Source of the DNA: Klugiella xanthotipulae
GTDB lineage: Bacteria > Actinomycetota > Actinomycetes > Actinomycetales > Microbacteriaceae
DNA: 64,000 nucleotides
NCBI RefSeq assembly: GCF_006716695.1
Contig: NZ_VFPN01000001.1
Span: 310,001-374,000, forward strand
Direction: 5' to 3'
The notes beneath the pieces are model-generated. The model did no database searches, had not been told where the DNA came from, and saw only the letters and a list, made by a program, of their open reading frames with translations. Of this stretch, positions 33,778 through 57,567 are shown in pieces; positions within the stretch are counted from its first letter, which is position 1, and each line of letters opens with the position of its first letter. A program made the translations under genes and the position numbers.

Positions 33778-36141
33778 TTAGTCCAGGTCATCCTCGTCCG
33801 GCTCCCGCCGCTCAATTCGAACCGCCACCGCCCGGGTGGCTCGGGCCCAGCCCAGCGAACGCAGTGACAGCGCCGACTTCCACTTCTGGCGACGGGTCAT
33901 CGTATCGCTCCAGTTTTTACGCAGATCGGTCACCTCCGTCCAGTAGTGATCGACAGACTCGGGAACGACCGGCTCCGGGCTGAAAACCATCCGATCAGCA
34001 CCGTAGGCGAGCGCCAAGATACGCGGCTCATCCAGACTCTCGGCGTACTCAACTCGCGTCTGGGTTCCCACGCTGTCGGCACCGTGGTCGATTGCGAGAT
34101 CAACCACCTCACGCCATCCCCCGGTCACCCGGTCGAGTGGCTCTAGCGCCTGGTAGCGACGACGACGACGGAAAAGCTTAGCGAGCAGGATAATGGCAAA
34201 TGGTGCCACGATCACCCCGATAACCAGCACCACCCAGCCCGCCACGGCGAGGATGCCCAGCAGGATACCCACCCACTCGGGTGCATCCGGGTCGGGATCA
34301 CGCATCTCACCCTCCGGTCGATACGGCACGATAGCCTCGTCGCTCTCGGGGGGCGGGGGTGGCGGCACGCTCAGCGGTTGCGAGACTTTCTCCAGATCCT
34401 TCGGCTTCTCCTCGGGGATTTTACGCCACTCGGGGGTCGCATCAACCGCAACCCACCCGTGCTCACGGGTGTTAATCTCGGTCCAGGCCGTGACATTGGA
34501 GCCACGGACGGTCTCCCCCTCGGCGTTTGGCAGGAAACCGAAGACCACCCGCGAAGGGTACCCTAGCTCCTGCGCGAGCAGCGACATCGCTACGGCGTAC
34601 TGCTCCGCGTCTCCCAAGAGCAGGGGCTCATCCAAAAACTGCACGATGCGGTCGAGCGCGTGGCCCGGACGACTGTAAATCTCATTGGTGCCTCCGTGGC
34701 TGATATACCCCTCGCGCAACTGAGCGAGCACTGCGGACAGTTTCTGCCCCGGGGTATCCTCCCCAGCCGACCAATCCTTCACGGTTGAGCCGATCACCGA
34801 GGGCATCTCATCGAGAGTCTCGATACGGGCACCGCCCGGTGTCACCTTGGCCAGCTCCACCTCGCTCAGGATATCCGGCACGACGGCATTGAGAGTGTAA
34901 CTATCGCCCTCCTTCAGACCCGAGGTGACAACCGCGGTGCCGCCCGAAGCGTTGTAGAAGAACGACTCGTTCAGGGCTGCGGCGCGGCTGCCCGCGAACG
35001 TAACCTCGCTGAGCCAGCCCACCGTGGGCATCCATACGCCGCGATACCCCGCGATCGTAATCGTCACGCTCGCTTCCTCGCCCTCCCGAGCGCTCTCGTC
35101 AACGCGGAACGGCACCCGGGAAAAATCACTCGCCTCCGTCTCCGCGGTGGGGCTACCCACCCGGTAGAGAACACCGTCGTAATAGTCGAGGGTGGCAATT
35201 CGAATGCGCCCCTCGGCGGGTAGCCCTTTTACGGTGAACAGCGGCTCGTTGATGACCTCGTCGCTCAGATAGCTGCGAAATGATGATAGCGGGCTGGCGT
35301 AATCACGCGGATTAAAGGGAGGCTGAATGCTGTCGCGCAGAACCTGCCGTGCGGTGGCGGGCGCGACCAGGTGCACACCGACCCCGGCGACCGAGCCGCC
35401 CACGAGCAAAACAAGCCCGGCGACCAGCGCCGCCCGAATCCGGGGCCATACGGCAGATGCGGCCACCACGAGCGAGTTCTCATCGCTCGTAACGACGGCC
35501 GTCGCAACGTCGTGGCGACGGCGGGCGCGCCACAGCATCCAGGACACCACCAGGGCGATACAAGCAAAACTCTGGCCCGCGAGCCACCAGGAGGGGTCAA
35601 TACCGTCAACCGGCGCGTGCACATTGGACACACCAAAAACAATCCCAAATGCATACACCGCGAGCGGACCGAGCACACCAGCCGCGGCAAACCGCCGCGA
35701 GCGCAAGACCGCGCTGAGCCCCAGAACCGTACCCAGCAGTAGCACCACAAACGCGGGCACCATGAGACCCTGGTAGGTGCCAACAGGCGCATCCACCGTC
35801 AGGAGGCGTTTCCAGCCCAGACCGGTGCCCAGCACCAGCTCGCGCAACCCGCTCAGGCTGGGGAGGTACGTGGCAACCGCATACGTCGGCACGGCCATCC
35901 CGCCGCCCACGACGGCGTAAACGAGTGCGGCGAGCAGGGGGGTGAGCCAGGTGGGAAGCTTGGTCAGAGCGCCCAGCAGCGCGATACCCGCGCCCAGAGT
36001 GATCGTGACGGCGGCCAGGACAAAAATGTGGACCTGCTGGTAGATGGGCCAGAGACTCACCGCAGCCAGCAGCATCAGGGCGACAAAAAAGAGGGTGTTC
36101 GCGACCACGTCTCGGCGCTGCAGAACGTGCGGCTTTTTCAC
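33778..36141 (-). CDS. TgpA-like membrane protein with transglutaminase-fold domain lacking catalytic Cys and His
   Basis: The 787-residue protein has several N-terminal membrane helices (residues 15-265), an extracytoplasmic part (about 270-620) with a transglutaminase-like domain, a further helix at about 635-660 and a basic cytoplasmic tail. The catalytic triad positions read GDAEQYA (Ala512 where Cys is expected), VTAWTEI (Thr551 where His is expected) and VAVDATPEW (Asp567 kept). So it is probably not an active transglutaminase or protease. It is the last gene of the operon, its GTG overlapping the DUF58 stop (GTGA). It corresponds to the tgm gene of the bifidobacterial PFNA cluster. Confidence 0.85.
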   Translation of the reverse strand: MKKPHVLQRRDVVANTLFFVALMLLAAVSLWPIYQQVHIFVLAAVTITLGAGIALLGALTKLPTWLTPLLAALVYAVVGGGMAVPTYAVATYLPSLSGLRELVLGTGLGWKRLLTVDAPVGTYQGLMVPAFVVLLLGTVLGLSAVLRSRRFAAAGVLGPLAVYAFGIVFGVSNVHAPVDGIDPSWWLAGQSFACIALVVSWMLWRARRRHDVATAVVTSDENSLVVAASAVWPRIRAALVAGLVLLVGGSVAGVGVHLVAPATARQVLRDSIQPPFNPRDYASPLSSFRSYLSDEVINEPLFTVKGLPAEGRIRIATLDYYDGVLYRVGSPTAETEASDFSRVPFRVDESAREGEEASVTITIAGYRGVWMPTVGWLSEVTFAGSRAAALNESFFYNASGGTAVVTSGLKEGDSYTLNAVVPDILSEVELAKVTPGGARIETLDEMPSVIGSTVKDWSAGEDTPGQKLSAVLAQLREGYISHGGTNEIYSRPGHALDRIVQFLDEPLLLGDAEQYAVAMSLLAQELGYPSRVVFGFLPNAEGETVRGSNVTAWTEINTREHGWVAVDATPEWRKIPEEKPKDLEKVSQPLSVPPPPPPESDEAIVPYRPEGEMRDPDPDAPEWVGILLGILAVAGWVVLVIGVIVAPFAIILLAKLFRRRRRYQALEPLDRVTGGWREVVDLAIDHGADSVGTQTRVEYAESLDEPRILALAYGADRMVFSPEPVVPESVDHYWTEVTDLRKNWSDTMTRRQKWKSALSLRSLGWARATRAVAVRIERREPDEDDLD

Positions 36142-37604
36142 AGTGTGGCCGCCTTACTCAGGGCCCGCTTAAGATCGTCGAGATAACCCACCATGAGGAC
36201 GGTCAGGCCGTCAATACGCCGCATACTGGGCACGATACCCGGGTTGCAGACCACCGCAACCACCTCGGTATCGGGGCTAAACGCGAGCGAGGCGGCACGA
36301 ATCTGGGTTGATGTGGGCAGCGAGCCAAAAACGAGAAAAGCCACCGAGATACCGGTAATCGAATCGGCGCACACCCGACTCAGGATGTTCAAACTAATAG
36401 CTCGTGGCGTGTGCGATACACCCGACAGTTCGTCGAGGAGACGCGAGGGCGTACTCACCCGCAGCTGTCGTGCGGCCGGAGTAGCCGCCGCTGTGTACTC
36501 GGGGAGCTCAACGGAAATAGCCACATTGGTGTCGCGCCCGTCACGAATCGCGCGAATACCCACCGAACCGGTAACGCTCACAGCCAGTTCGAACTCTTCC
36601 TCGCTGTAGTAGTCGTTGCTGCACGTGCTCAACGCGATGAGCAACTGGCTGCGGCGCGTTTGCTCAAACTGACGAACCATCATCTGACCCGTGCGGGCCG
36701 TGCTCTTCCAGTGGATGTGGCGGCGATCATCCCCTGCGGTGTACTCCCGCAGGGCGTGGAAGGAGACGTCGCTATTCGTGAGATCCCGCGTGGGGTTTCC
36801 CTCCAGATCGCGAATCAACCCGGTGTTGGTGCTGGGAATCGAGGTGGTCAGGGGGTGGATGAACAGTTGCAGCCCCGTGGTCCACACCAGTTCACGGCGC
36901 AGCAACAGCAGGGGATCAGCACGCACTGAGCGCACCGGACCCACCGTGATGATGGATCGTTTGAGGGTCGGTACGATGAACTCGCCCCGAAAACTGTTCC
37001 CCGCGGCGAGGCTCGGCAGGTGAAACTCGGCGAGCCCCACCCCGACGGGAACCTCGATGGTCTCGGGAAAAAGCCGGCGGCGCGTCGGATTGGTCACCGT
37101 GAGTGACCCCGGAGCCTGCTCCCCCACCATCACCCGTGGACTCACCATCGCAAGGTCAACCGAATAGATACTGCGGCCAAACATGAAGAAAAGCGCGATG
37201 GCATAGAAAACCACGGCGGCATATCCCACAAATATGGCCTCAAGCCAACCCCAGGCATAGCCACAGGTCAAACCGAAAACAGCGGTGGCAATCATCGACC
37301 AGCCCAACCCGGTTACGGTCGATCCCAGCCACGCGCCCAGCCGACGAAGGCGACGATTCAGCTTGCGCCACATCCGGCGAAGAATGCGCGCGGCGACAGC
37401 CCGGAAGCCCGTCTCCGGGACGTTCAGGTGGGTGGAGGTTCCGGCGTATCCGGTCTCGACGTAGCTGGATGCTCCACTGCGCAGCGTCGATGCGCGCTGG
37501 GCCGCCTTCAGCCGCTCCTTACGAAGGGCGCGTCGTGCAAACGGTGAAGTACCGGCTTTCACCCCCGAACGAGCCTCGGCTCGCTGTGATGGCTGTTTAC
37601 TCAC
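36138..37604 (-). CDS. DUF58 membrane protein (first copy)
   Basis: The 488-residue protein has a basic cytoplasmic N terminus (1-95), two membrane helices (about 100-145), and the DUF58 domain with the motif REYTAGDDRRHIHWKSTART at about residues 289-308. DUF58 proteins almost always accompany MoxR ATPases and have a vWA-like fold; the molecular role is unsettled. Its GTG overlaps the moxR stop and its stop overlaps the next gene, both GTGA junctions. The second DUF58 protein (55585) is shorter and lacks the helices. Confidence 0.9.
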   Translation of the reverse strand: MSKQPSQRAEARSGVKAGTSPFARRALRKERLKAAQRASTLRSGASSYVETGYAGTSTHLNVPETGFRAVAARILRRMWRKLNRRLRRLGAWLGSTVTGLGWSMIATAVFGLTCGYAWGWLEAIFVGYAAVVFYAIALFFMFGRSIYSVDLAMVSPRVMVGEQAPGSLTVTNPTRRRLFPETIEVPVGVGLAEFHLPSLAAGNSFRGEFIVPTLKRSIITVGPVRSVRADPLLLLRRELVWTTGLQLFIHPLTTSIPSTNTGLIRDLEGNPTRDLTNSDVSFHALREYTAGDDRRHIHWKSTARTGQMMVRQFEQTRRSQLLIALSTCSNDYYSEEEFELAVSVTGSVGIRAIRDGRDTNVAISVELPEYTAAATPAARQLRVSTPSRLLDELSGVSHTPRAISLNILSRVCADSITGISVAFLVFGSLPTSTQIRAASLAFSPDTEVVAVVCNPGIVPSMRRIDGLTVLMVGYLDDLKRALSKAATL

Positions 37605-38575
37605 GCCACGGTTTCCCGCTCAACGGGCGGCTCAACATCAATCAGTACCTGAGCGATGACGCTGTCGGCCGTTACCCCGTCAAACTCAGCCTCAGGATCA
37701 AGCATCAGCCGGTGGGTCAGCACGGGGCCAGCCAGGGCCTTCACATCGTCCGGCAGCACGAAGTGGCGCCCGTGCACGGCGGCCCAGGTCTTCGAGGTGC
37801 GAACGAGGGCCAGAGCTCCACGCACACTCACGCCCAGGCGCACCTCGGGTGCGCTGCGTGTTGCCTCGACCAATCGGGCGATGTAGTCGAGCACGGCGGG
37901 CTCAATGTGCACCGTCTGGGCAAGTGCCGCCATCTCGACCACGTTCTCGCTGCTAATCACGCTGGGCAGGATGCTGTCGTGTGAGCGCGTTCCCGCCTTC
38001 TCGAGGATGCTGATGGTTGCCAGGTGGTCGGGGTAGCCGAGCGTGGTCTTCATCACAAAACGGTCAAGCTGCGCCTCAGGCAGGCGGTAGGTTCCTGCCT
38101 GCTCCACCGGGTTCTGCGTAGCAATCACCATGAAGGGGCGACCAACGCCGTGCGTATGACCATCGATCGTCACGCGGCCCTCCTCCATCACCTCGAGCAG
38201 AGCCGACTGGGTCTTGGGGCTGGCACGGTTAATCTCATCGGCGAGCACAATGCTGGCAAAGATGGGGCCGCGGTGAAACTCAAACTCCCCCCGCTTTTGG
38301 TCGTAGATACTCATTCCCGTCACGTCTCCAGGCAGCAGGTCCGGAGTGAACTGGATGCGGCTGCTGGTGCCGCGGACGCTCTGGGCAATAGCGCGGGCGA
38401 GCGAGGTCTTGCCCGTTCCCGGGTAATCTTCCAGGAGCAGATGGCCATCGCTCACGAGAGCGGTCAGCGCGAGTTGTACAACACGCTTTTTACCCAAAAG
38501 CGCTTTCTCCACGTTGTGCACGACCCGGTTAAAGACGTCGGCAAACCACGCGGCCTGCTCGGGGGTCATGGTCAT
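37601..38575 (-). CDS. MoxR-family AAA+ ATPase (first copy)
   Basis: A chaperone-like AAA+ ATPase of 324 residues with Walker A DYPGTGKTSLARA (about 55-67), Walker B VLADEINRASPKTQSALLEV (about 110-129), sensor VIATQNPVEQAGTYRLPEAQ and a C-terminal lid domain. MoxR proteins are thought to activate or assemble partner complexes by inserting metal or remodelling vWA-fold proteins. A good AGGAG stands before the ATG at 38575. Coupled to DUF58 (GTGA). It follows the giant Ig-like gene by 67 bases. Confidence 0.94.
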   Translation of the reverse strand: MTMTPEQAAWFADVFNRVVHNVEKALLGKKRVVQLALTALVSDGHLLLEDYPGTGKTSLARAIAQSVRGTSSRIQFTPDLLPGDVTGMSIYDQKRGEFEFHRGPIFASIVLADEINRASPKTQSALLEVMEEGRVTIDGHTHGVGRPFMVIATQNPVEQAGTYRLPEAQLDRFVMKTTLGYPDHLATISILEKAGTRSHDSILPSVISSENVVEMAALAQTVHIEPAVLDYIARLVEATRSAPEVRLGVSVRGALALVRTSKTWAAVHGRHFVLPDDVKALAGPVLTHRLMLDPEAEFDGVTADSVIAQVLIDVEPPVERETVA

Positions 38576-38642: not shown

Positions 38643-41600
38643 TCAGTTACAGTTCACGCTGAGGCGTAACGCATCGGGCGTGTCTTCACCGTCGTATCGT
38701 GCCCACACGATCATACTGATCGCACTGCCCGGGATGGTTTGGCCCTCAGCCCGAGTCACGACGCGACCATCGCGCAACACGTAGCTCCAACGAACCTCGG
38801 CCGGGCCCACCACGTTAATCACGGGCTTCGACACGTCAGCGTAGACCTGACAGGTCAGCGGACTTGCCGAGTTCGGGGTGACGGTCAGATTGAGCGGCAG
38901 ACCCGCGCTGGCTGACCCATAGCCGCTGCAATAGGCTTCATTGCCGTCAGTCGTCGCGCACGCACGCAGCGAAATCTGGTTCTGGGAGTTGCCAATAGTA
39001 CCGGCAATCTCCTTGGTCTCACCCGGCTTGATCAGCACGCCGGTACCGTTGCCCACGCGATAATAGTAGCTTTCCACCCCGGCCGTGGTCGGAGCCGTGA
39101 TCAGCAGGTTTTTCAGGGCACCCGTGAATTCCGTGGCCCGAGAGATCGATGGAGCCCGCGGTATCGATGGTTTCTGCCAGTACTGCTGCTGACCAGTGAC
39201 CGTCGCGCAGGCCCATCCGTTCCAGGCCGTGATCGACACGTTCGCGAGGGTCGAGGCGTTGAACCGCTGGGTGCTTGAGGTGGCCGAGTCACCCCTCTTG
39301 GCCGCGGCACAGGTTGAGGCTCCTCCGCCCCACACCACATCGTAGGTGGGTACGATCCCACCGTTAGCCGCGGCAGGATACGATGCCGTGAGCTGCCCAT
39401 CACCCGAGGTGAAACTCACCGGGTTCATTGTGGGGGCCTTCTTCGCCGCGGCACCGCTGACGGTTGCCGACTTCCACGCAATCGCACCGTAGGTGTCCGT
39501 CTCCAGGTTATTTTTGGCCGTCACCGTCACGGTGTGCGTGGTCGCCTCCAAGTTGGGCACCTGGACGGAGGTTCCCGAGGTGACATTGCTGTACTTCACA
39601 TCGCCGCCCTCCTGGGTCACCACAACGAGATACTCACTAGCGGGGGTACCGTTGTGCGGGGTCACCGAGGGGCTCCACGAGATGTTGAGGGTACCGCCGT
39701 TCACGGGCGCAAGCTCGCTCGACGCGACGGGCTGCACCGCGGTGAGGTTGGTGGGAGCCTCCGGAACGTAGTCGATCCGGAGCGGGGGGCCTGGCGGGCT
39801 GGCAACGGACTCCCCGACCGAGTTGACCGCAATCACCATGTAGCTGCGTTTCACCCCAACACCAGCCTGAGCCGCCGTGACGGTGCAGCTAGAGTTATCC
39901 AGACCGCAGTCAACGTTGACGGCACCATCGGTGCTGCGCAGGAGGTAGCGCTCAATCGGCTTACCATTACTCGACGCGGAGGGGGTAAAGCTCAACCGTA
40001 GATTCCCGTCGTTCTGGAACGAGTCCTGCTTGAGGTATCGTGGTGCGCCGGGCGCATCGGGAACGTCAACCACAATCACCGTCACGGTTCCCGTGACGAT
40101 CCGATCTTTCTGGTTCGCGGCGTCTTGCACCCGATAGGTGAGTTGGAGGTTGGTGGAGATTGCGGCATCCGCGGCGGCCGTCACCGTGATGGTGCGGTTA
40201 TCCGCGCTCGGGCTGGCTGTCACACCGGCAACCTGATTCTGACTCTCCACTTTCACAACCGTGTAGGGGGTGAGTTCGGCAGGACCGAGGTCGTTGGCCA
40301 GCACGTCAACAGTTTTTGTCTCGCCACGGCGCAACTCAACCGTGTCCGGCTGAGGCTGAACCTTTGCCTTGGTCGAGCCCACCACGCTCACGGCAATCGA
40401 CGCGGTCGCGACCTCACTCTTTTTATCCTTCACCCCAATAGCGATCGGCACCGTCTCGCCCAGGGGCGTGTTGTTGTCCATCTTGACCGTGAGCGAGCTC
40501 TGGGACAGGCTCGCGGAGAGTCCCTTGGGAGAACCGGCAGGCAGCGACCACTCCAGGTCTGCGTAGTCGTCTGGGTAGGGGTAATCGGTGAGATCCTTGA
40601 GGTCCAGAGTTCGCGTGCCCGTCGGTTCCAGGGTGAAGGAGGCCCCGCGCAGGGTGGGCGGCTTGTTATCAATCGGAGTTACGGTGATGGGCAACGTGAT
40701 CGTCGCCTCGTTACCCTTCTCGCCGGGTTTCCCATCTGTCGCGGTGAACATAATGGATGCCGGGCCCCAATAGCCCTTCTCCGACACAAACTCCAGAGTG
40801 GTGTCGTTTCGGTACGTGTTGGCTCCGTTGGAGTTATTAGGTTTCACCGTTGAGGCGTCGCTGATGCGCACCGTCTTGCCCCCGGCCGCAATCACCTGGT
40901 CGGCCAGGTTAATCGTGAGCTTTTGCCCGCTGGGCACCGTGAGGGGCTTGGCATCCGTGCGGCGCTCGGGTATGGCAGACTTGCGGCCAGGAACCCAGAC
41001 AAACCCGTAGGAGGCCACCTCGGGATCGTCGGTGACCGACACCCGGAAGGGGATAATTTGGTTCTTGTCCGTCACCTGGATACTCAGAAGCTTCTTGTCC
41101 GTCACCTGGACATTACTGTCCCACCCGGCAACCGATCCGATCGTAAGATTCTTGATCGAACCCTCGGCATAAAAGACGTTGTCCCAGGTATCGACCGCAA
41201 CACGTTCGTTGTCCTTCGAAATGTCGGTGAGATTGAGCACGGTATCGTCCACGATGGGCCGGGTCGGCGGGGCGTCTTTGCGCACGCTCACCTGGATCCA
41301 GGCCGAGCTCTGCCCACCGGTCGCGTTTTGAATCGTGTACAGAAGGGGATAGTTACCCTCCTTCGTGGGCACCGAAATACTGACGGTATCGTCGGTGAAC
41401 GTGGCGGGAAGCTCGTCACTCTTCTCAGTGTCCACAATCGTGAGTATGCCACCGTCAGGATCCGAGTCATTATCGAGTGGTTTGACCACAAACTCGGTTC
41501 CCGGACGGACCGTAACCAGGTCGGTCGTCGCGATCGGGTTACTGGTGAGCTCGGCCGCAGGCATCACGCCAACCCGGATCTGACCGTTACCCCGGGCTCC

Positions 41601-44441
41601 GAAACTGTCAGTAACCGAGTAGTAGAACACGTCTGTTCCCGTCGTGGCGGGCCCCGCCTCGTACTCGATGTAGTCTTTGCCGGTTGCCGTCGCGACGCCC
41701 AACTGGGGCGCTGTCTCGGTGCCGCTCAGCGTCACCGAGTCGCCGTCGTTATCGATTCCGTTGAGAATAATCGGAATGCGGATTGTCTGCCCCTGCACAG
41801 CACGAGCCGTCACGGTTCGCGGTGCGGGTGCCGAGTTGGTCTCAGCATCGAGCTCACGCACAGAAATTTGAACCACCGCGGTCGCGATCTCGCCACCGGG
41901 ACTCTCCACGATATACGTCGCGTAAAACTCACCGGGCTTATCGGGTGCCAGGTACCGCAGCTTGGTGCCCGAGACGAATAGCAGCCCGCCCCCCTTGTTG
42001 ATGTCGTGAGCGAAGTCCGGACGGAGCGTAATCGGCTTGCCATCAGGGTGGATGTCGTTATCAAGAACCGGGATCTCGATCACCTCGCCCACGCGAGCCT
42101 TCGCCCGATCAGCCACGGCAACAGGGGGCTTCTCCTTGGCAGGCGGCTCAATCTGGATGATCGTGAGCACGCCCTGGGTGGTCTGATAGCCATTCGTCAC
42201 GGTGTAGATAACGTCAACCCGCCCGCCCGGAATCGGCTCGGAAAGGCTCGCCCGCATCATCCCGTGGTTAAGTACCTCCACAATGAGACCCTCGGACTCG
42301 AGCGGGTTACTCATGCCGCTGATCATCAGTACACCACCGGCCGGATCCACATCTGAGGCCAACACATTCACAGTATCGGTCTGAGTGAGGTAGAGGAACG
42401 CAGATGATGGCGTGGTAATCGGCACTGAGTCGGGGGCTGGAGGCTCAAAGATGTCGATGCGGAGACTGCCCGATACGGCGCTACTACCATCGCTCACCTT
42501 ATATTCCAGCAGGTAGGTTCCTACTTTGCTGGCGGTAAAGCGCACCTCGCCCGTTTCACTGTTTACCGCGACAGTTGCGTCAGCAAGCTTGTCATCAGGC
42601 ACCCCGGTCACACGAATCAGACCGTTTCCACCGCGCACATAATCGAGGGGCTGAACGGTGACCTCCTGGTCACGGTGACCCGTTGCGGCGATGCCATCGG
42701 CAATAATGGGGGCCGACGCCGTTGACACCTCAACGGCGAGCGTGCCGGGGGTACTGGCAGCACCATCGGAGACCATCAGGGCCACAGACTTATTGCTGGA
42801 CCCGCTATCCGAATCTTGGAAGTAGACGATGCCCTTGGCCGAGAAGGTCGCCACATCCGGAGCGGTCGTCACGGCATCGGCGAGGAAGATCGGATCGCCA
42901 TCGGGATCGTACCAGTCACTCAGAACGGCGCGGTCAAACTGGTCACCGGAGGTTACCGTCTGACTGGTCTGTCTCGCCTGAATGGGCGGGCTATTCTCGC
43001 CCGGCTGGCGAATCTGAACCGTCACGGTTGTCCCGGCGTCTTTCCCCTTGCCATCGCTGATACGGTAGCCAAAGGTGAAGGAGCCGCTGGCATCCGGCGG
43101 CAGGGAGACCTGAAGGAACTGTCCGTTAGAAATCACCGCCGCCGTACCCATGTCTGAGGGGTAGTCGGTCATATCCGAGATCATGATCACATCGCCGTTG
43201 GGGTCGAAGTCGTTGAGAAGCACCGGGAGGGTGCTCGTGCGTCCCGGTCGAGCGCCAAAGGTGTCTGGCTGTGCAACCGGCGGCTTCTGCACGGAATCCA
43301 CCTCAGCCGGGAGCATCGGATCGTTTTCTTTCTGCTTGTCGTCGTCCTCAATGTCCTGCAGAATGTCATCCCAGTTATTGACCAGCTGTCCATCTTTCTG
43401 GACCATCCAGGAGCGACCCGTTACCTCGTCGTTGAGCACAACGTAGCCAAAGCGAACGGCAAAGGCGAGCCGAGGCTCACCCGTAGCGCCGGCCAACTGC
43501 TGAGTGAAGGTTTTTCCTGCACAGTCGCGCCAAAAAGATCCATCATTCCAAGCGGCAAAAACGCAGTTGCCGACGACAGTGGTGCGGGCCGAAACGCCGG
43601 AGGCATCAGAAAAGACCCGGTCGGAGTTGCTGCCCGTCAGGGACACCCGAATGAGGCCACGGGAGTCGCTCACATAGATGTCCTCTGCCTGTGGCGCAGA
43701 AGACATCAAGACGGGCGACTCGGCGCTGTCCAGCGCTACCGGGTCTGCACCGTTGATACTGAGGGTGCCTGCCGTCGTGTTCAGGATAATCGCTTTGCCC
43801 GCGACAATCGCGGATTGGTAGCTGTCGTCTTTCTCTCCGAGAGAGACATCGCTACCGGCCTCCGGGGCGGTCGAGGTGGCCAGGTCCATCCGAATCAATC
43901 CGCTGCTCTCGGAGTAGGCAGCAAATGCACCGTTATCGTCCCCGGCAACCGTGGAGTTTTTACCGAGCGTCAGATCGGGTTCGGTCTCGGCGGTGAAACC
44001 GTCCAGGGCATTGGTGGGGATAAACCACACCTGACCGGTAGATGACGCGTGAACCACGAGCGTCTTCCCTGCAAGGAAAATATCGTCGGCTTCGACGGGA
44101 AGCTGCACCTTCTCGTCAAAGGAAGAGAGCGCCTCATCGACGATCGAGAGTTCTTTTTTCTCGCGGGAGTAGAGAAGAACCTGCAAGTCGTTCTGGATGA
44201 CCGTCAACCCGGTCTGGTTGCTGCGCGTCGCGGTATCCAATTGCGTAATCTGGGTGTTCAGCCGACCGAGGGCTGTCTCCGCGTCGTTGACCACCCAGAC
44301 ACTCGCGTTGTCCAGGTCTGTGCGCTCGGTGCTGTAGCCGCCCGAGGCCGCGGCAACCGTGATAACGAGTGCAGCAACCAACACAATCACAAGACCGCTA
44401 CTGGCGGCAGCAACATTTTTTTTCAGCCACGAACGAATCAT
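38643..44441 (-). CDS. Giant membrane-anchored Ig-like / FN3 surface protein
   Basis: The 1932 residues start with a short cytoplasmic part and one membrane helix (about 11-32). The extracytoplasmic part has a beta-propeller-like region (about 35-370), then seven or eight cadherin/Bap-type Ig-like domains with the motif VLxNDxDPDG (for example IPVLDNDIHPDG and VKPLDNDSDPDG), two fibronectin type III domains at about 1460-1650, and a Cys-containing C terminus. The aspartates in the repeats suggest calcium binding. It lies three bases after the kinase gene and before moxR. In the bifidobacterial PFNA cluster the FN3 protein has this place. Probably an adhesin or envelope sensor (inference). Confidence 0.88.
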   Translation of the reverse strand: MIRSWLKKNVAAASSGLVIVLVAALVITVAAASGGYSTERTDLDNASVWVVNDAETALGRLNTQITQLDTATRSNQTGLTVIQNDLQVLLYSREKKELSIVDEALSSFDEKVQLPVEADDIFLAGKTLVVHASSTGQVWFIPTNALDGFTAETEPDLTLGKNSTVAGDDNGAFAAYSESSGLIRMDLATSTAPEAGSDVSLGEKDDSYQSAIVAGKAIILNTTAGTLSINGADPVALDSAESPVLMSSAPQAEDIYVSDSRGLIRVSLTGSNSDRVFSDASGVSARTTVVGNCVFAAWNDGSFWRDCAGKTFTQQLAGATGEPRLAFAVRFGYVVLNDEVTGRSWMVQKDGQLVNNWDDILQDIEDDDKQKENDPMLPAEVDSVQKPPVAQPDTFGARPGRTSTLPVLLNDFDPNGDVIMISDMTDYPSDMGTAAVISNGQFLQVSLPPDASGSFTFGYRISDGKGKDAGTTVTVQIRQPGENSPPIQARQTSQTVTSGDQFDRAVLSDWYDPDGDPIFLADAVTTAPDVATFSAKGIVYFQDSDSGSSNKSVALMVSDGAASTPGTLAVEVSTASAPIIADGIAATGHRDQEVTVQPLDYVRGGNGLIRVTGVPDDKLADATVAVNSETGEVRFTASKVGTYLLEYKVSDGSSAVSGSLRIDIFEPPAPDSVPITTPSSAFLYLTQTDTVNVLASDVDPAGGVLMISGMSNPLESEGLIVEVLNHGMMRASLSEPIPGGRVDVIYTVTNGYQTTQGVLTIIQIEPPAKEKPPVAVADRAKARVGEVIEIPVLDNDIHPDGKPITLRPDFAHDINKGGGLLFVSGTKLRYLAPDKPGEFYATYIVESPGGEIATAVVQISVRELDAETNSAPAPRTVTARAVQGQTIRIPIILNGIDNDGDSVTLSGTETAPQLGVATATGKDYIEYEAGPATTGTDVFYYSVTDSFGARGNGQIRVGVMPAAELTSNPIATTDLVTVRPGTEFVVKPLDNDSDPDGGILTIVDTEKSDELPATFTDDTVSISVPTKEGNYPLLYTIQNATGGQSSAWIQVSVRKDAPPTRPIVDDTVLNLTDISKDNERVAVDTWDNVFYAEGSIKNLTIGSVAGWDSNVQVTDKKLLSIQVTDKNQIIPFRVSVTDDPEVASYGFVWVPGRKSAIPERRTDAKPLTVPSGQKLTINLADQVIAAGGKTVRISDASTVKPNNSNGANTYRNDTTLEFVSEKGYWGPASIMFTATDGKPGEKGNEATITLPITVTPIDNKPPTLRGASFTLEPTGTRTLDLKDLTDYPYPDDYADLEWSLPAGSPKGLSASLSQSSLTVKMDNNTPLGETVPIAIGVKDKKSEVATASIAVSVVGSTKAKVQPQPDTVELRRGETKTVDVLANDLGPAELTPYTVVKVESQNQVAGVTASPSADNRTITVTAAADAAISTNLQLTYRVQDAANQKDRIVTGTVTVIVVDVPDAPGAPRYLKQDSFQNDGNLRLSFTPSASSNGKPIERYLLRSTDGAVNVDCGLDNSSCTVTAAQAGVGVKRSYMVIAVNSVGESVASPPGPPLRIDYVPEAPTNLTAVQPVASSELAPVNGGTLNISWSPSVTPHNGTPASEYLVVVTQEGGDVKYSNVTSGTSVQVPNLEATTHTVTVTAKNNLETDTYGAIAWKSATVSGAAAKKAPTMNPVSFTSGDGQLTASYPAAANGGIVPTYDVVWGGGASTCAAAKRGDSATSSTQRFNASTLANVSITAWNGWACATVTGQQQYWQKPSIPRAPSISRATEFTGALKNLLITAPTTAGVESYYYRVGNGTGVLIKPGETKEIAGTIGNSQNQISLRACATTDGNEAYCSGYGSASAGLPLNLTVTPNSASPLTCQVYADVSKPVINVVGPAEVRWSYVLRDGRVVTRAEGQTIPGSAISMIVWARYDGEDTPDALRLSVNCN

Positions 44442-44444
44442 TAG

Positions 44445-45872
44445 CTAGCCTCCCACGGACGAACAGGTCTCAGAGCTGACTTCACCCGGTTTACCCTCAC
44501 GGGTCACCGTGACAGTAATGCACACGGGAGCTCCCGGGGTGGACGGTGCCGCACGGTACTCGGTATCGCGCTGGGTGCTCACTTCGCCGTCAGAGGTGCT
44601 CACCAGGTAGCGGTCGCCATCGCCCAGGCCGGGATCATTCCAGGTGAAAACGACCGCGTCATCCGTGGGCTCGGCCGTGATGTTACTGACGATGGGAATT
44701 CCGGTTGAGCCACCCCACAACAGAACGCTGACGACCGCAGCCGCAGCGAGCACAGCGACGCTCCCGAGGGAACCCCAGAGAATACGACGACGACGCCGAC
44801 GGCTGCGGTTGTCGCCGCTACCGCTCGCCGAACGGATGACGGTAACTCCCGTCTCCTCGGCGCTCTCGTGTGGCTCACGGTTCCCGCTGTGTCGATAGCG
44901 GCGATGGGTACCCGCCAGAGGAACTCGTTGAGCGGGACCGTCGGCCATACCGTCCGAATCAATCAGGGTACGCGAGGCCTGAATACGCGCATCATCCGCG
45001 ATCTCGGCCGGGGTCTGGGCGAACCCGAGTTGCGTCTCCACGATCTGTAAACCACGCACAAATTCGAGCATGCTTTGTGGGCGGGCGGTGGGGTTTTTGC
45101 TCATTGACTGAGCCAGAAGCGCCTCGAACTGGGGCGGAACATCCGGCCGACCGAGCGATTGCAGACGGTCGCGACCCACGATTCGCGAACGCACCACCTC
45201 ACGCTTGTTCCGCTGCTTCTCGTCGCCAGGAAGTTCGTAGGGCGAGCGACCCAAGAGGAGGGTGAAGAGGGTGGCGGCAAGCGAGTACACCTCGCTGGTA
45301 ACGGTACCTGCGGTCTCGCCACGCAGCACCTCGGGTGCCGACCAGGGCACCGACATCCCCTCAACGTGCTCGGAAGCCAGCGCGGCGGCTGTGGCGGCGA
45401 TCCCAAAGTCGGACAGCACAGGATGCCCATACTGCGTCAGGAGGATGTTGGACGGTTTGATATCCCGGTGCAGAAAACCTACCCGATGGGCGGTTTCGAG
45501 CGCACTGCCAATCTTGATTCCCACACGCAGCACCTCGGAGACCGAGAGCGGCTTCTCTTTGTATCCGGCGCCCAGAGAAGACGGGCAGTATTCCATCACC
45601 AGATAGGGGCGACCATCCGGGGCAATACTGGCGTTGTGCACGGTGAGCACCGACGGGTGGGCTTTCAACTGCGACATCAGGTTGGCCTCGGAGAGAAACA
45701 TCTCGCGAAGCTTCTTGTTGGCAACTTTGGGAGTCAGCACCTTAACCGCGACCTCGGCCCGCGGGAAGTCTTGCTCATAGAGAAAGACGTACGCAAATCC
45801 GCCCTTGCCCAGGATGCGGATGTGATGGTAACCCGACAACTGAGGAGGAACTATTTGTGTGGATACTGACAA
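44445..45872 (-). CDS. Membrane Ser/Thr protein kinase (Pkb2/PknB-like)
   Basis: The 475-residue protein has an intact Hanks-type kinase domain (residues 15-285): GKGGFAYVF glycine loop, Lys44 in VAVKVL, HRDIKPSN with Asp137, DFG at 155-157 and APE near 180. The activation loop (TAAALASEHVEGMSVPW) has few Thr, unlike mycobacterial PknB. A linker, one membrane helix at about 364-387 and a small FN3-like extracellular domain (about 395-475) follow; there are no PASTA repeats. The TTG start at 45872 has AGGGAG upstream. The operon also encodes its likely phosphatase and FHA readers. Confidence 0.92.
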   Translation of the reverse strand: MSVSTQIVPPQLSGYHHIRILGKGGFAYVFLYEQDFPRAEVAVKVLTPKVANKKLREMFLSEANLMSQLKAHPSVLTVHNASIAPDGRPYLVMEYCPSSLGAGYKEKPLSVSEVLRVGIKIGSALETAHRVGFLHRDIKPSNILLTQYGHPVLSDFGIAATAAALASEHVEGMSVPWSAPEVLRGETAGTVTSEVYSLAATLFTLLLGRSPYELPGDEKQRNKREVVRSRIVGRDRLQSLGRPDVPPQFEALLAQSMSKNPTARPQSMLEFVRGLQIVETQLGFAQTPAEIADDARIQASRTLIDSDGMADGPAQRVPLAGTHRRYRHSGNREPHESAEETGVTVIRSASGSGDNRSRRRRRRILWGSLGSVAVLAAAAVVSVLLWGGSTGIPIVSNITAEPTDDAVVFTWNDPGLGDGDRYLVSTSDGEVSTQRDTEYRAAPSTPGAPVCITVTVTREGKPGEVSSETCSSVGG

Positions 45873-45967: not shown

Positions 45968-47182
45968 TTACTCCGCTGTGAGTACGATGAAGAACTCATT
46001 TCCGATCTCTACCCGGGTGCGCGCCTCGACAAAAACCTTTTTGCCCGGAACGCACTCCTCTTCGGGACGATTGGTATGGCGCACACGCGTTCCGTTTCCG
46101 GAGTTTCGGTCCTTGACCCAGAGTTTTCCCTCCTCAACCCCAAACTCGATGTGAGTCTTGGAGACGGAGCGTGCTGGATCAATCATGACCAGCACGTGGT
46201 CGAAGATCTCGCCCTCAGCTGGCCGCGGGTTACGCCCGAGAAGACCCGATCCCCCAATCGTGAACTCCTCCCCCGTGCTGAGTTGCAGGGTAAAGGCGGC
46301 TGAAACCCGGCGGGGCCGACGACGCATCGAGATCATCGTCTCTTCAAGATCCTCCGCACCGGCCACCGCTGCGGGAGCCTCCGGGATCGGCGCGGTGGAG
46401 ACCACCGGCGCTTCTCCCAGCGGGGGACGAATCGGATCGGCGCGAATCTGCTCAGCAGGCACGAGCGGGGTCTCCGTGGTACGGGGCCTCGTCGGCGGCT
46501 CTGCCTGAGCAAGTCGCGGTGCGATCGGCTGCTCGACAACCGAGACAGAGCCGGTACGAGGGGCCGGGGGACGCGGCGGGGCGGTCACCTTTTCCGGCAG
46601 AGGGGGACGCGGCGGAGCCATCTGCGGCGCAGGGGGACGCGGCGGCTGAACCGCCACGGGTGGCTGCGGGGCAACCGCCACAGACGAGACCGGCTGTGTA
46701 CGCACGGGAGCAACCTCGGCTGACGGCATAGCCGGCGGCGCAGGGGGACGCGGCGGCTGGGTGGCGGGAGGGATGGCGGAGGCGGGCAAGCCGGTCACAG
46801 GCATCCCACTTCCCGGAATACCGGCTGCCGGGGAACCGAGAGGAGCTGGCGGCCGCGGCGGATACCCCGGGGTGACACCCACAACCGGCGGAGCGGGCGG
46901 ACGAGGCGGAACCAACTGCGGAGCGGGCGGCGAGAACGGGGCTTGCTGGATCGCGGCAGGCGGAGCGGGCGGAGCAGGTGGACGCGAAGAAGCGGCTGAG
47001 GGAGACACCGGCGGAGCAGGCGGACGCGGCGGCTGACGCCCATCCAAACCAGCCTGAACACGGCTCGACGAGGTAGCGGCAGCTGGCTGCACCGAGGTCG
47101 AGCGAACCAACTGGCCACACTCCCCACAGAACATACTGTTGGTGAGGAGTTCGTGACCGCAATAACTGCAAACGGCTCTCAT
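45968..47182 (-). CDS. Zinc-ribbon, Pro-rich, FHA-domain protein
   Basis: The 404-residue protein has an N-terminal zinc ribbon (CSYCGHELLTNSMFCGECGQ, residues 5-24), a long low-complexity linker of RPPAPP-type repeats (about 50-270), a possible phosphosite (DLEETMISMRRRPRR, about 282-296) and a C-terminal FHA domain with LLGRNPRPAEG, SVSKTHIEFG and RNSGNGTRV. The FHA residues that bind phosphothreonine (GRNP, SxxTH, NG) are all present. The Thr just before the FHA domain recalls GarA/OdhI, in which a kinase-modified Thr folds back on its own FHA domain. It stands between the phosphatase and the kinase gene. Confidence 0.9.
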   Translation of the reverse strand: MRAVCSYCGHELLTNSMFCGECGQLVRSTSVQPAAATSSSRVQAGLDGRQPPRPPAPPVSPSAASSRPPAPPAPPAAIQQAPFSPPAPQLVPPRPPAPPVVGVTPGYPPRPPAPLGSPAAGIPGSGMPVTGLPASAIPPATQPPRPPAPPAMPSAEVAPVRTQPVSSVAVAPQPPVAVQPPRPPAPQMAPPRPPLPEKVTAPPRPPAPRTGSVSVVEQPIAPRLAQAEPPTRPRTTETPLVPAEQIRADPIRPPLGEAPVVSTAPIPEAPAAVAGAEDLEETMISMRRRPRRVSAAFTLQLSTGEEFTIGGSGLLGRNPRPAEGEIFDHVLVMIDPARSVSKTHIEFGVEEGKLWVKDRNSGNGTRVRHTNRPEEECVPGKKVFVEARTRVEIGNEFFIVLTAE

Positions 47183-47320: not shown

Positions 47321-48145
47321 TCACAGGTTGATGCCAGGAAGGGTCTCATGCCAATCGGTCTCATCTGGACCCACCGACGTGATTTCAACGAGCACAATGG
47401 TGATATTGTCACGACCGCCGGAAGCCAGCGCCGCCGTCATCAGACGGTTCACGATCTGCTGGGGAGAGCCGCCCCTGGCAATATGCTGAGCAATATCTCC
47501 ATCGACCAGTTCCTTGGTTAATCCGTCGGAACAGCAGATGACTTTGGTGCCCGCGAGAGCGGGGACCAGCCAGTAGTCGGGAACTGGAGCGTCCTCAAAG
47601 CCGACGGCACGGGTAATCATGTTGCGTTGGGGGTGAGACAGCGCCTCTAGCGGCGTGATCTCACCCGTGTCAACCATCTCCTGCACGACCGAGTGGTCAA
47701 CACTCACCTGGGAGAGCACCTCGTCCTCAAAGATGTAGGCCCGGGAATCCCCCACGTTAAAAATGAGCCAATAGGGATCATCCCCCTGGGTGGTTAAGGC
47801 CGCCCCCACGCAGGTAGACCCGCCAGAGGCACCCGTCTTTGAGCCCTCAATCCGGATAGCCTTTGTGGCGGAGTGCAGGGCATCCTGAAGCTGCTGGGAG
47901 CCGACAGGTACCGTCGTGATCGCACCAAGTGCGCCCGCGACCGCCGCGCTCGCGACATCGCCAGCCGCGTGGCCACCCATGCCGTCAGCAACGGCAAAGA
48001 TCGGCGGAAGCGCCACCAGGCTGTCTTCGTTCTGCGCTCGCTTCAGTCCGCGATCAGTCGCGGACGACCAGCTGAGGGTGACGGTACGTCCCTCTGCGCC
48101 CAGTACCACGTCTCGTGTGCGACTGGTTGCCTCGGTAAAGGTCAC
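47321..48145 (-). CDS. PP2C-family Ser/Thr protein phosphatase
   Basis: A soluble 274-residue phosphatase of the PPM/PstP type. Metal-site motifs are present in order: DRGLKRAQNEDS (about 32-43), FAVADGMGGHAAGD (about 50-63), VGDSRAYI, CCSDGLTKEL and GGRDNITIVLVEI at the end. No membrane helix, unlike mycobacterial PstP. Its GTG overlaps the stop of the FHA scaffold gene (GTGA), and it is the obvious counterpart of the kinase at 44445. A 138-base gap follows, with no gene or recognisable element. Confidence 0.94.
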   Translation of the reverse strand: MTFTEATSRTRDVVLGAEGRTVTLSWSSATDRGLKRAQNEDSLVALPPIFAVADGMGGHAAGDVASAAVAGALGAITTVPVGSQQLQDALHSATKAIRIEGSKTGASGGSTCVGAALTTQGDDPYWLIFNVGDSRAYIFEDEVLSQVSVDHSVVQEMVDTGEITPLEALSHPQRNMITRAVGFEDAPVPDYWLVPALAGTKVICCSDGLTKELVDGDIAQHIARGGSPQQIVNRLMTAALASGGRDNITIVLVEITSVGPDETDWHETLPGINL

Positions 48146-50139
48146 GCGTCGTCCTTCCGTTGGAATGGCAGGATTGTGAGTGCCACTCCATCGCCAATAT
48201 CTAAAATCGTGCCGGGGATAACGGCCATCGCTTCACCCTGTCGCATTCGCCTCGGAGACATTCCGGGCACCGTAACGATCGTGCCGTTTGCCGAGGCGAG
48301 GTCGGTGGCCACGACAGCCATTCCCTCCTGCCTCAGCTCCAGGTGCGTCGCCGAAATACTACCCGCTGGCGAGTGAACCTGCACCAGGCTGGGCAACCGA
48401 CCAGAGATAATCCGAGTTGAGCGGGGCTTACGCCCAAAAATGAGTGTACCCACAATCGCCATCACACGTCCGTCAGTCAGCGAGACTCCGGCCACGAATC
48501 GCGGCTCGGCCCGAGCGGGCGGCGGCGTAGGGAGCGGAGGCAAGGGCGGTAACGGCGGCAACTCACCGTCAGCCAGAGGAGCCAGTCGCTTTCGCTGTGC
48601 GGCTGAACGCCGCGCGGGCGGCGGCGGGGGCGGCGGCGGCGTAATCACGGTGTCGGCCAGGTCGCCCGTCTCACGCGGAGTCAGCAGGGTCTCATCGTCA
48701 CGGTAGCCGAGGTGAGCTGAAAGGACAGTGTCCTGGTCATCACGTACCGCGGGGGCCTGGGGCGGGGGCACCTGAGCCGCGAGTGGTGGGGCAACCTCCG
48801 GCAACGGGACCGGAATCGCAGGCAGACCCAGCGGAGCCTCGACCACCTGCCCCAGCACATTCAACACCGTTTCCGCATCATCGACACCGGGGGCCACATA
48901 GGACTCAAATTCGGCGGCAGGTGGGGCTAAATTTAGTGGAGCGCTCTCGGCGATGTCTGGGGTCTCGGGCTCACTAACCCGCTCGGGATCATGAGACGCA
49001 ACCGCCGCAAAGCGCGGGTTGAGTAGGGTGTCCTCCATGGAAGGTTCGGCCGAGTCGGAGACCGAGTGCTCAGCCTCGGCCACGGAGAATCCGATGAGAG
49101 TGTCCTCGTCGTCAGGCAGCTCATCCGTCCCCCGTGGTGTGCGACCCAGAACCGTGTCTTCCTCATCCAGCTCACGCCGACCCAGAACCGTGTCTTCCTC
49201 ATCCAGCTCACGCCGACCCAGAACTGTGTCTTCCTCATCCGCCACCGCGGCCGGTATCGCCGGAACGCTGTCCTCGGTATCGGAAAGCGGTTCACTGAAA
49301 CCAGCGTAGGACTCAAGGAGGGTGTCTTCATCATCATCCGAATACACGCGCGCGCCGAGAGCCCCGAGAACGGTGTCTTCATCATCCACCACGGTCTCTC
49401 GGACAGGCACGGAATCTTCGACAACGACGTCCTCACCGGGGCGGTCCCTGGCCCCGAGCGGATACGCGTTGGGCGCGCTCTCGGTTGTGGCGTAGATCAC
49501 GGAGGCGGCCACCGTCTCGCCACCGGCCGACGCCAGCGGCGCAGGATCGGTGTCGTCAATCACAGTGTGACTGCCCGGCCACACGCTGGTTGCCGGTTGC
49601 TCAACAGGATCTGCATAGGGTGACAGTGGGGGTGCAAAAGGCGGTGGCGACGGGGGCGCCGCCACAGAATTCACGGCCAGATTGAGGATGGTGTCGTCAA
49701 TCCCTTCGGCGTCCTGGTTGCGCGGCGTGGGAATCGTGTCCCGGTCGTCACGCACCGGAACAGGACCGGCCGGGTGCTGCCAGGTAGCCGTAACCGAGCG
49801 ACGCTCACGCGGCCGGGGGGTGAGAACGGTATCGCCATCATCCACCAGGGAGCGCTCCGAAGAGGGAACGCCGTACACAAGAAGCGTGTCACCGTCGTCA
49901 GCGGGTGCGCGCTGGGCCGCGGGTACACCATAAGAGAGAAGGGTATCGTCGTTATCTTCGGGAACTGTCTCGGGCCCGGGGCGCGCGCGGTCCCCGAGAA
50001 TTGTGTCATCCATATCGTCGGATGCTGGAGCATTCACCGGATTCAGCGCGCCACCGTCCGCACCCTCGTGCGCGGCGTTGACCACCCTATTGGTGCCATC
50101 GGGAGTGGGCTCAGAAGCCACGACATTATCTGCTGTCAC
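48142..50139 (-). CDS. FHA scaffold protein with array of acidic Thr motifs
   Basis: First gene of the operon. Residues 40-525 of 665 are low-complexity and acidic and carry about 17 Thr-centred motifs of the form [DE]DT[VLI]L (for example DDTILG, EEDTVLGRR, DDEDTLIG, SMEDTLLN). A C-terminal FHA domain (about 560-660) has FGRKPRS, SISATHLEL and ASANGTIV. The repeated motif would suit phosphorylation by the operon kinase and recognition by FHA domains, making this a multivalent scaffold (inference). Three EEDTVL motifs come from a 36-bp DNA repeat. The GTG at 50139 follows TAGGCT by six bases. Confidence 0.85.
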   Translation of the reverse strand: MTADNVVASEPTPDGTNRVVNAAHEGADGGALNPVNAPASDDMDDTILGDRARPGPETVPEDNDDTLLSYGVPAAQRAPADDGDTLLVYGVPSSERSLVDDGDTVLTPRPRERRSVTATWQHPAGPVPVRDDRDTIPTPRNQDAEGIDDTILNLAVNSVAAPPSPPPFAPPLSPYADPVEQPATSVWPGSHTVIDDTDPAPLASAGGETVAASVIYATTESAPNAYPLGARDRPGEDVVVEDSVPVRETVVDDEDTVLGALGARVYSDDDEDTLLESYAGFSEPLSDTEDSVPAIPAAVADEEDTVLGRRELDEEDTVLGRRELDEEDTVLGRTPRGTDELPDDEDTLIGFSVAEAEHSVSDSAEPSMEDTLLNPRFAAVASHDPERVSEPETPDIAESAPLNLAPPAAEFESYVAPGVDDAETVLNVLGQVVEAPLGLPAIPVPLPEVAPPLAAQVPPPQAPAVRDDQDTVLSAHLGYRDDETLLTPRETGDLADTVITPPPPPPPPARRSAAQRKRLAPLADGELPPLPPLPPLPTPPPARAEPRFVAGVSLTDGRVMAIVGTLIFGRKPRSTRIISGRLPSLVQVHSPAGSISATHLELRQEGMAVVATDLASANGTIVTVPGMSPRRMRQGEAMAVIPGTILDIGDGVALTILPFQRKDDA
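49142..49240. repeat. 36-bp tandem repeat (2.75 copies) inside the FHA scaffold gene
   Basis: Units at 49142-49177, 49178-49213 and 49214-49240 are nearly identical and encode DEEDTVLGRREL. In frame, so expansion or contraction would change the number of Thr motifs. Confidence 0.9.
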
Positions 50140-52196: not shown

Positions 52197-53111
52197 CTAC
52201 CAGGGCTTATCGGCACCGCTCGGTCCCTCCTGATCACCACGATTCTCGGTGTCGTAGTCCTGTAGCTCTTCAGCGCCCTCGCCCAGCTTCTGTTCAAGCT
52301 CCTTCAGCTGTTCCTCGGTGGGGGTGTCCTTCGGGGTCTCCTGCGGTTTCTCGCCCTCCGCCTCGGTTCCCTCGCCCTCGTCCTGGGGGTCTGTGTCGCC
52401 CTTGCCCGAGCCCTCATTCTGATCCTGCTTCTGCTGCAGGCGCTCCTCGGTCTCGTCCAGAGAGTCGCCCATGCTGCGGTTCGGGTCCGACGACTTCTGA
52501 TCGGCCTCGTCGCTGTTGCATTCTTCGGGCGCCGCATCGAGAACCTCCAGAGCCTCCCGGTAGCGCACAGTGGAGTCGGCAATGTTGCCGTCAGCTTTGG
52601 ACTCGTCTCCCCTCAGTTCCAGAACAAGGGCAAGGTTAAACCGGACGCCGCACACCTCCAGGCCCTCGGCCAGCGGCAGAGCCTCCTCGAAAGCATCCTG
52701 TGCCTCGGTCAGCTTACCCGCGGCAGCCAGACCAACTCCGAGGTTAAATGGTGCCTTGAACGGTTCAAACCAGTTGAGTGGGGCCTGCCAGGAGGACTGG
52801 CGAATGGTGTCTTCGTAATCGCCGGCCATGTACGATGCGATTGCCATATGGGCAAAAGCGTAGAGGCTGAGAAGCTTGATGACGAGAACGCCCGCCAGGA
52901 TACTCACGGGCAAAGTTCCCCAGAACAGCCAGCGACGAACCTTGCGACGACGAGCATTCACGTTCAGAAGACGACCAGCGGCCTCCTGAGCGGCGGACGT
53001 TGTGGTCACCGGCTCGGCTGGCCGCTCCACGGGACTAGGCACGCCCTCAGCACCGGACCCGACCGAGGGATCGGTGGAGTCGGATGTGCGCGCTATGGTC
53101 GGGTCGGTCAT
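52197..53111 (-). CDS. TPR-containing membrane protein (BatC/BatE-like)
   Basis: The 304-residue protein has a Ser/Pro-rich cytoplasmic start, one membrane helix (about 62-85), TPR-like repeats (about 90-195, including APFNLGVGLAAAGKLTEAQD and VRFNLALVLELRGDES), and a highly acidic, Gln/Glu-rich C-terminal tail. This composition matches the TPR component that ends Bat operons (MoxR, DUF58, vWA, vWA, TPR). It is separated from the upstream vWA gene by two bases and convergent with the LRV gene. Confidence 0.82.
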   Translation of the reverse strand: MTDPTIARTSDSTDPSVGSGAEGVPSPVERPAEPVTTTSAAQEAAGRLLNVNARRRKVRRWLFWGTLPVSILAGVLVIKLLSLYAFAHMAIASYMAGDYEDTIRQSSWQAPLNWFEPFKAPFNLGVGLAAAGKLTEAQDAFEEALPLAEGLEVCGVRFNLALVLELRGDESKADGNIADSTVRYREALEVLDAAPEECNSDEADQKSSDPNRSMGDSLDETEERLQQKQDQNEGSGKGDTDPQDEGEGTEAEGEKPQETPKDTPTEEQLKELEQKLGEGAEELQDYDTENRGDQEGPSGADKPW

Positions 53112-53113
53112 GT

Positions 53114-56472: not shown

Positions 56473-56480
56473 GAAGCGCC

Positions 56481-57485: not shown

Positions 57486-57567
57486 CCTGGCAGTGCCTCT
57501 CGTAGAAGGGGGATGCGCGCTCAATGCGGCACGATTCTGTGGTGGCCGGGCCACCCGGTGTAATGCC

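Follow-up and report, generated by a model that had tools for sequence, protein, structure and literature searches.

The stretch of DNA analysed here (the window) comprises 64,000 nucleotides of Klugiella xanthotipulae and carries a complete PFNA-like gene cluster on its minus strand. At the head of the cluster lies a gene with a GTG start (48142..50139) that encodes a protein of 665 amino acids, here called the array protein, in which a linker (residues 1-545) precedes a C-terminal FHA domain. Based on open reading frames and domain matches, the other members are a PP2C-type protein phosphatase (47321..48145), whose gene has a 4-nt overlap with the FHA gene; a zinc-ribbon and FHA protein with a Pro-rich linker and one copy of the motif described below before its FHA domain (45968..47182); a Ser/Thr protein kinase whose catalytic elements HRDIKPSN, DFG and GKGG are intact and which has one hydrophobic stretch recognised by eye (44445..45872); a 1932-amino-acid Ig/cadherin-like (Big_9) protein, which is the FN3/BIG member of the cluster (38643..44441); and a MoxR ATPase, a DUF58 protein and a TgpA-type transglutaminase (33778..38575). 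The kinase, FN3/Ig, MoxR (AAA), DUF58 and transglutaminase genes are contiguous between 33778 and 45872, and the PP2C and FHA genes are present too.

The array protein thus heads a cluster that is widespread in Actinomycetota and is of the PFNA type of Bifidobacterium. In that genus the operon has been described as pkb2-fn3-aaa-duf58-tgm with prpC and fha as optional genes (PMC8430577), giving the same gene content of kinase, Fn3/Ig, AAA ATPase, DUF58, transglutaminase, PP2C and FHA. The difference is that in the window the FHA gene stands at the head of the cluster and its product carries the 17 motifs; the available text of the Bifidobacterium description, our source for that side of the comparison, makes no mention of a motif array (PMC8430577). 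The order FHA-PP2C-kinase-BIG/FN3-MoxR-DUF58 was repeated in many of 80 named loci. Of the 144 loci that have at least 1 kb of downstream sequence, 112 had a PP2C gene starting no more than 800 nt downstream, with the kinase next in 101; the Propionibacteriaceae, the Ruaniaceae and some others have a different gene order. The kinase and phosphatase genes, which a preliminary description of this DNA had assigned to the operon of the array gene, sit where it placed them and belong to the same recurring cluster, for which one operon is predicted from the gene order.

Just upstream of the PFNA-like cluster (52197-57575, minus strand) we observed a second MoxR, DUF58, vWA, vWA and TPR-like set, which is Bat-like as judged from the translations. 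The gene between both clusters is divergent (50447-52174, plus strand), and two relatives, G003 (locus L213) and G023 (locus L155), have its counterpart upstream of their cluster.

A repeated threonine motif in an acidic linker

The linker is acidic and rich in Pro and Ala, with a net charge of -75 compared to +4 for the FHA part, and it is predicted to be disordered on the charge-hydropathy line, the sole disorder measure used. It carries 17 copies of the motif [DE]-T-[VIL]-[VIL] (48649..50004, minus strand), with the threonines at T46, 66, 85, 104, 150, 249, 256, 273, 305, 317, 329, 347, 371, 424, 471, 484 and 497. All 17 sites, from 50004 down to 48649, lie within the span that the preliminary description gave for the array. 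Its figure of about 17 copies is true of this relaxed motif, as the literal form in which it was written, [DE]DT[VLI]L, occurs 9 times in the array protein. When the partial sites T58, T135 and T209 were added to the 17, the spacing ranged from 7 to 59 residues.

The number of copies was far above the level expected from composition: in 20,000 rounds of shuffling of residues 1-545 the mean was 0.32 and the maximum 4. Position X of the frame [DE]-X-[VIL]-[VIL] was occupied by 17 Thr and 0 Ser within the array stretch (residues 46-497), and in the linker as a whole by T in 17 cases, N in 1, D in 1, V in 1 and S in 0, against a linker background of 40 T and 32 S (T vs S at the motif, Fisher p = 8e-6). 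Relaxing the frame to an acid at -1 or -2 with two aliphatics after it admitted 1 Ser in the array protein, and the loosest frame (acid at -1 or -2, aliphatic at +1) gave 20 T and 5 S. Across the whole genome, a DNA pattern for [DE][DE]T[VILM][VILM] had 95 matches compared to 29 for the reversed pattern, and 11 of the 95 fell within the 2-kb array gene.

One part of the array is a young duplication. A 12-residue unit, DEEDTVLGRREL, stands in tandem around T305, T317 and T329 with its third copy shortened (49141..49239, minus strand), and adjacent 45-nt stretches of this tandem were 82-84% identical, compared to a median of 44% over all site pairs; merging the three sites leaves 15 motifs. The threonine codons of the 17 sites were ACC in 9, ACG in 4, ACA in 2 and ACT in 2, and the 15 nt 3' of the motif had a mean identity of 32% between sites. 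Position +3, which takes part in the general ligand preference of FHA domains, was G at 6 sites, N at 3, T at 3, S at 2 and V, D and E at 1 each. As four synonymous Thr codons are in use and conservation is lacking in what follows the motif, the motif is held at the protein level, and apart from the one 12-residue triplicate the copies are old or independently kept.

Motif number and threonine retention among relatives

In a family set of Microbacteriaceae, 238 of 299 genomes gave a match to the array protein, and the matches listed lay mainly at the FHA end. For motif counts we used 146 proteins (not genomes, as a few genomes give two), obtained from 188 loci after removal of 42 with identical last 110 amino acids, and counted a motif as an acid at -1 or -2, T, and two of VILMF. 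By this rule the array protein of the window still scores 17. Among the relatives there were 0 motifs in 53, 1 in 48, 2 in 29, 3 in 8, 4 in 5 and 5 in 1, with the highest counts being 8 in one protein (G017) and 9 in one (G003); 130 of the 146 thus have 0-2 motifs and 77 have 1 or 2. Some counts are too low, as the rule that split linker from FHA domain shortened some linkers (L068: 2 vs 1), and a few of the counted sites belong to N-terminal domains. Of the 53 relatives with a count of zero, several are nearly linkerless and 20 fit a much looser rule, some of them doubtfully. Since these 53 lack the strict motif, the FHA domain must, as judged from the counts, have other ligands in relatives without it.

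The preference for threonine was seen in the relatives as well. In their linkers the context [DE][DE]X[VI][VIL] was filled by T in 88 of 102 cases and by Ser in 0 of 102. The single-acid frame [DE]X[VIL][VIL], in a tally that takes in the whole N-terminal sequence of the relatives, folded domains too, held T 134, A 34 and S 30 times out of 280, so a lone acid is no marker of the Thr site; on these tallies two acids mark it and one acid does not.

An alignment of 74 rows (the window plus 73 relatives from a diverse set of 106) was used to follow single sites. At T497, the motif closest to the FHA domain (codon at 48649..48651, minus strand), the column held Thr in 68 of 69 letters, a value that leans high because, where linkers are sparse, MAFFT is inclined to place one Thr over another, and an acid at -1 in 51 of 69. 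The T471 column held Thr in 59 of 70 letters, and that of T484 consisted mostly of gaps (Thr in 1 of 14 letters). Alignment-free counts, which are free of this stacking bias, gave T in 9 of 10 cases in G003 and 8 of 9 in G017 for the frame of an acid at -1 or -2 followed by X and two aliphatics; in G017 the acid was at -2 only in 5 of 8 sites. The Propionibacteriaceae-type loci (L107-L116 and L118-L122) had one [DE]xGTIFST site in 10 of 15. The comparison of orthologues suggested in the preliminary description therefore gave motif numbers ranging from 0 to 17 with Thr retained at alignable sites, and in place of the pattern that it named as refuting, acids kept and Thr lost, the opposite was seen.

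In a tree of the FHA domain (145 rows, with L112 and L113 left out and the window added), which has few columns and an unsettled bootstrap, the window grouped with G003 and G017 with a support of 99/85. L037, with 5 counted motifs, fell outside this group in a poorly supported part of the tree, and the arrays may have a single origin. We favour the view that an arrangement with one or two sites was expanded in one lineage to give the array. When the linker was used as sole query across the class, it was found in this genome alone of 394; as the linker is highly divergent and may escape such a search, this result says little about arrays elsewhere. A plasmid search gave two records, which matched the FHA part only, at 36-40% identity.

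In several relatives (L016, L017, L021 and L030) the motif and FHA domain are preceded by a conserved N-terminal domain, read by eye as FYSPLA..VGG.LNW.FFAAG, and the protein of the window is without it. A Pfam scan of four relatives, L016 included, returned FHA and no other family.

FHA domains and other carriers of the motif

That the array protein ends in an FHA domain (residues 546-665; 48145..48504, minus strand), as the preliminary description had it, is supported by PF00498 above its cut-off (23.3 vs 20.7 bits), whereas hmmscan of the whole 665-residue protein at E 0.001 returned zero families. The canonical pThr-binding residues G569 R570, S596, H599 and N618 G619 were invariant in the 74-row alignment. 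AlphaFold2, run on residues 441-665 with the 73 relatives, gave an FHA fold, most of it at a pLDDT of about 95. Before model residue 108 it showed neither strand nor helix of 4 residues. Around T471, T484 and T497 the pLDDT was below 60, so a docked motif is absent from the model, which cannot see phosphate. By both sequence profile and Foldseek the first matches were structures of Mycobacterium tuberculosis FhaA (2lc1, 3poa, 3po8 and 3oun), of which 3poa and 3po8 are titled for pThr-dependent interactions and 3oun is a complex with Rv3910; the FHA domains of MDC1, DgcB, OdhI and GarA came lower in the fold list. The FHA domain of the array protein therefore has the residues of a pThr reader, and pThr binding is predicted. 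There were 12 FHA matches in the genome.

The zinc-ribbon FHA protein carries its single motif, LEETMIS, directly before its own FHA domain (pattern match at 46332-46345). Its gene was found between those of PP2C and kinase in 3 of 101 relatives' loci, in addition to the window, and the motif reads LEETMI in the window and G003 and ADETII in L155. These three loci include both of those with 8 and 9 motifs; in the remaining one, L155, 1 motif was counted. With the window included, large arrays were present in 3 of 4 loci with the zinc-ribbon gene and 0 of 98 without (p = 2e-5, kinship ignored); the association is nearly one event and lies largely in one clade (window, L213 and L212). The kinase of the window also has a motif-like site, EETGVTVIR, in its juxtamembrane stretch. 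Among 77 kinases (76 relatives and the window, all complete open reading frames with HRDIKPSN), 35 had T[VILMF][VILMF][RK] between kinase domain and membrane, the window being one of them.

We also noted the motif in other proteins of this genome. HemD, the uroporphyrinogen-III synthase (L233:1410-2804, plus strand; G000:C1 near 866,300-867,300), has an N-terminal extension with three motif copies (ADTIIPDTEDTIIPDAEDTVVPE). As the two nearest orthologues (G023 and G003) are without the motif extension, HemD was rejected as a conserved client. DivIVA (L295:1319-1966, minus strand; G000:C3 near 502,621-503,262) has ADDIEETVVTH after its N-terminal domain. A search of 60 genomes returned 30 DivIVA loci, 29 of them readable, and the strict motif was present in 4 of the 29, this genome included; G003 has EETVAV, the remaining 24 are without the motif, and the four carriers and G003 rank as the top five matches. 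In two carriers, G014 and G046, the FHA protein found no match, which argues against DivIVA as a dedicated client of that protein. HemD and DivIVA as motif-tagged clients are thus leads only. Further copies were observed in an ABC-transporter ATPase (L263:310-2751, minus strand; G000:C2 near 73,600; ABC domain 581-723), with IEDTVAG, SDETIVPS and IEETLPS in a long acidic N-terminal stretch, and in a MerR-family regulator (L238:602-1237, minus strand; G000:C3 near 545,700), whose N-terminus MSLPLPLLEDTVVNRP contains the motif and whose gene is separated by about 1 kb from a 158-residue frame with an FHA match.

A candidate multivalent scaffold and its alternatives

From these features we infer that a Ser/Thr kinase, most simply the cluster's own, would phosphorylate the threonines of the repeated [DE][DE]T[VIL][VIL] sites and that the adjoining PP2C would strip the phosphates from the array. 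The pThr sites would be ligands for the array protein's own FHA domain, either within one molecule or from one molecule to another. In this lineage they would also be read by the zinc-ribbon FHA protein, whose gene is inserted in the cluster; either of the two may be the main reader. The baseline of the family would be one or two sites before the FHA domain, in a GarA/OdhI-like arrangement. With the site multiplied to 17, one molecule could hold many FHA domains, and graded, kinase-controlled clusters would form at the membrane kinase. We consider it somewhat more probable than an even chance (about 0.58) that the array is phosphorylated and serves as a multivalent scaffold for the FHA domains that read it. 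The proposal of a candidate multivalent phosphothreonine array in the preliminary description is supported in part: it is in line with the better retention of Thr than of the adjacent acid, the lack of Ser in 102 double-acid contexts, the variation in motif number, the canonical FHA domain and the kinase and PP2C genes of the recurring cluster, and it is weakened by the single-acid contexts of the relatives, in which A and S occur beside T.

Known systems provide the ingredients of such a scaffold, namely self-binding FHA tails, the condensation of Rv1747, PpkA droplets and the repeats of MDC1. GarA/OdhI and Bdellovibrio DgcB are FHA proteins that, like the array protein, bear a Thr site in a flexible tail, and in their self-binding tails position -2 is Glu and positions +2 and +3 are hydrophobic (PMC6733907). 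The array shares with these tails the acid and the hydrophobic +2 and not the +3 (PMC6733907); as far as described, the tails have one site with Ser at +1, whereas the array has 17 sites with an aliphatic +1 and mostly G, N, T or S at +3. Rv1747 of M. tuberculosis combines FHA domains with a disordered linker, and its condensation is promoted by phosphorylation and reversed by phosphatase; in contrast to the array protein it is an ABC transporter with two FHA domains, and the available text mentions no repeated motif array (PMC9312465). For a type VI secretion system, uptake of its Fha protein into droplets of the kinase PpkA has been reported (PMC12607579). Human MDC1 has multiple pSer-Asp-pThr repeats in one segment that are read by its FHA-BRCT partner NBS1 (PMC8079451), and according to structure titles it also has an FHA domain of its own. 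The array resembles it in that one Thr motif recurs many times along a stretch that is disordered by charge-hydropathy. However, MDC1 is eukaryotic, is written by CK2 and uses another motif, and there is no sign that the two arrays share descent. M. tuberculosis FhaA (Rv0020c, TB39.8) is the nearest solved FHA domain by profile and fold, a comparison made for the FHA domain alone. TIFA is an animal FHA protein for which phosphorylation-induced polymerisation is described, with one pThr per molecule. In the open-licence literature, which was covered in part, no bacterial FHA protein with a comparable array was found. The earlier statement that no named family has such an array can thus be kept for bacteria within that coverage, while MDC1 and Rv1747 are functional precedents for it. 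FHA proteins with pThr sites of their own are known, and the 17-site array would be a new form of these.

The most elaborate version of the scaffold would be a bacterial pThr polymer. In it the receptor kinase would place as many as 17 equivalent pThr marks on a single disordered chain, and the chain would be cross-linked, via its own FHA domain and that of the zinc-ribbon protein which this lineage gained, into a phosphorylation-graded condensate. The condensate would recruit motif-bearing proteins, such as the kinase through its juxtamembrane stretch, perhaps DivIVA, and further ones. We regard this version as speculative and rather doubtful.

Several other explanations were weighed. The phosphorylated array could act as a relay scaffold like MDC1, read by a partner FHA domain (that of the zinc-ribbon protein or of other FHA proteins of the cell), with its own FHA domain binding the juxtamembrane pThr of the kinase and no self-polymer being formed. 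The presence of the zinc-ribbon gene where arrays are largest, the membrane-side T[VILMF][VILMF][RK] in 35 of 77 kinases and the 12 FHA matches in the genome all favour this arrangement, but the zinc-ribbon association is almost that of a single clade, and we hold it to be a tenable possibility that falls short of even odds. As it is a special form of the multivalent scaffold, the odds of the two overlap.

A self-switch of the GarA type would need one or two FHA-proximal pThr that close the FHA domain in cis and release its partners, with the other copies being redundant acceptors that raise sensitivity, and neither polymer nor client assembly. GarA, OdhI and DgcB use their own tails (PMC6733907), the FHA-proximal T497 is the best kept of the alignable sites, and just 1 or 2 motifs are present in 77 of the 146 relatives. 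This switch, however, leaves unexplained why Thr is kept in copies up to 450 residues away and why the motif expanded to 8-17 copies in one clade, and the hydrophobic +3 of GarA-type tails is found at 1 of 17 sites only (V after T85). As a full account of the array we find it unlikely.

The repeats could also be acidic short linear motifs that function independently of phosphorylation, as docking or decoy sites for kinase, phosphatase or cation, which would fit the linker charge of -75 and a motif that is acidic already. We rank this as improbable because Thr outlasts the acid (68 vs 51 of 69 at T497), whereas a docking motif would not need Thr, and Ser is missing from all 102 double-acid contexts in the relatives. 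Functionless expansion by replication slippage, although it does account for the one 12-residue tandem triplicate, was rejected as very improbable, given that near-identity is confined to this 3-copy stretch and that the median 45-nt identity of 44%, the use of all four Thr codons, the irregular spacing and the 17 T vs 0 S speak against it.

The bacterial FHA switches compared here have one tail site and one reader. With orthologues that have 1, 2, 8, 9 and 17 copies, mostly beside kinase and phosphatase genes, the family offers a natural series in which it could be tested directly whether a rising number of sites converts an FHA switch to a multivalent scaffold; PFNA-type clusters would also gain a concrete output to assay.
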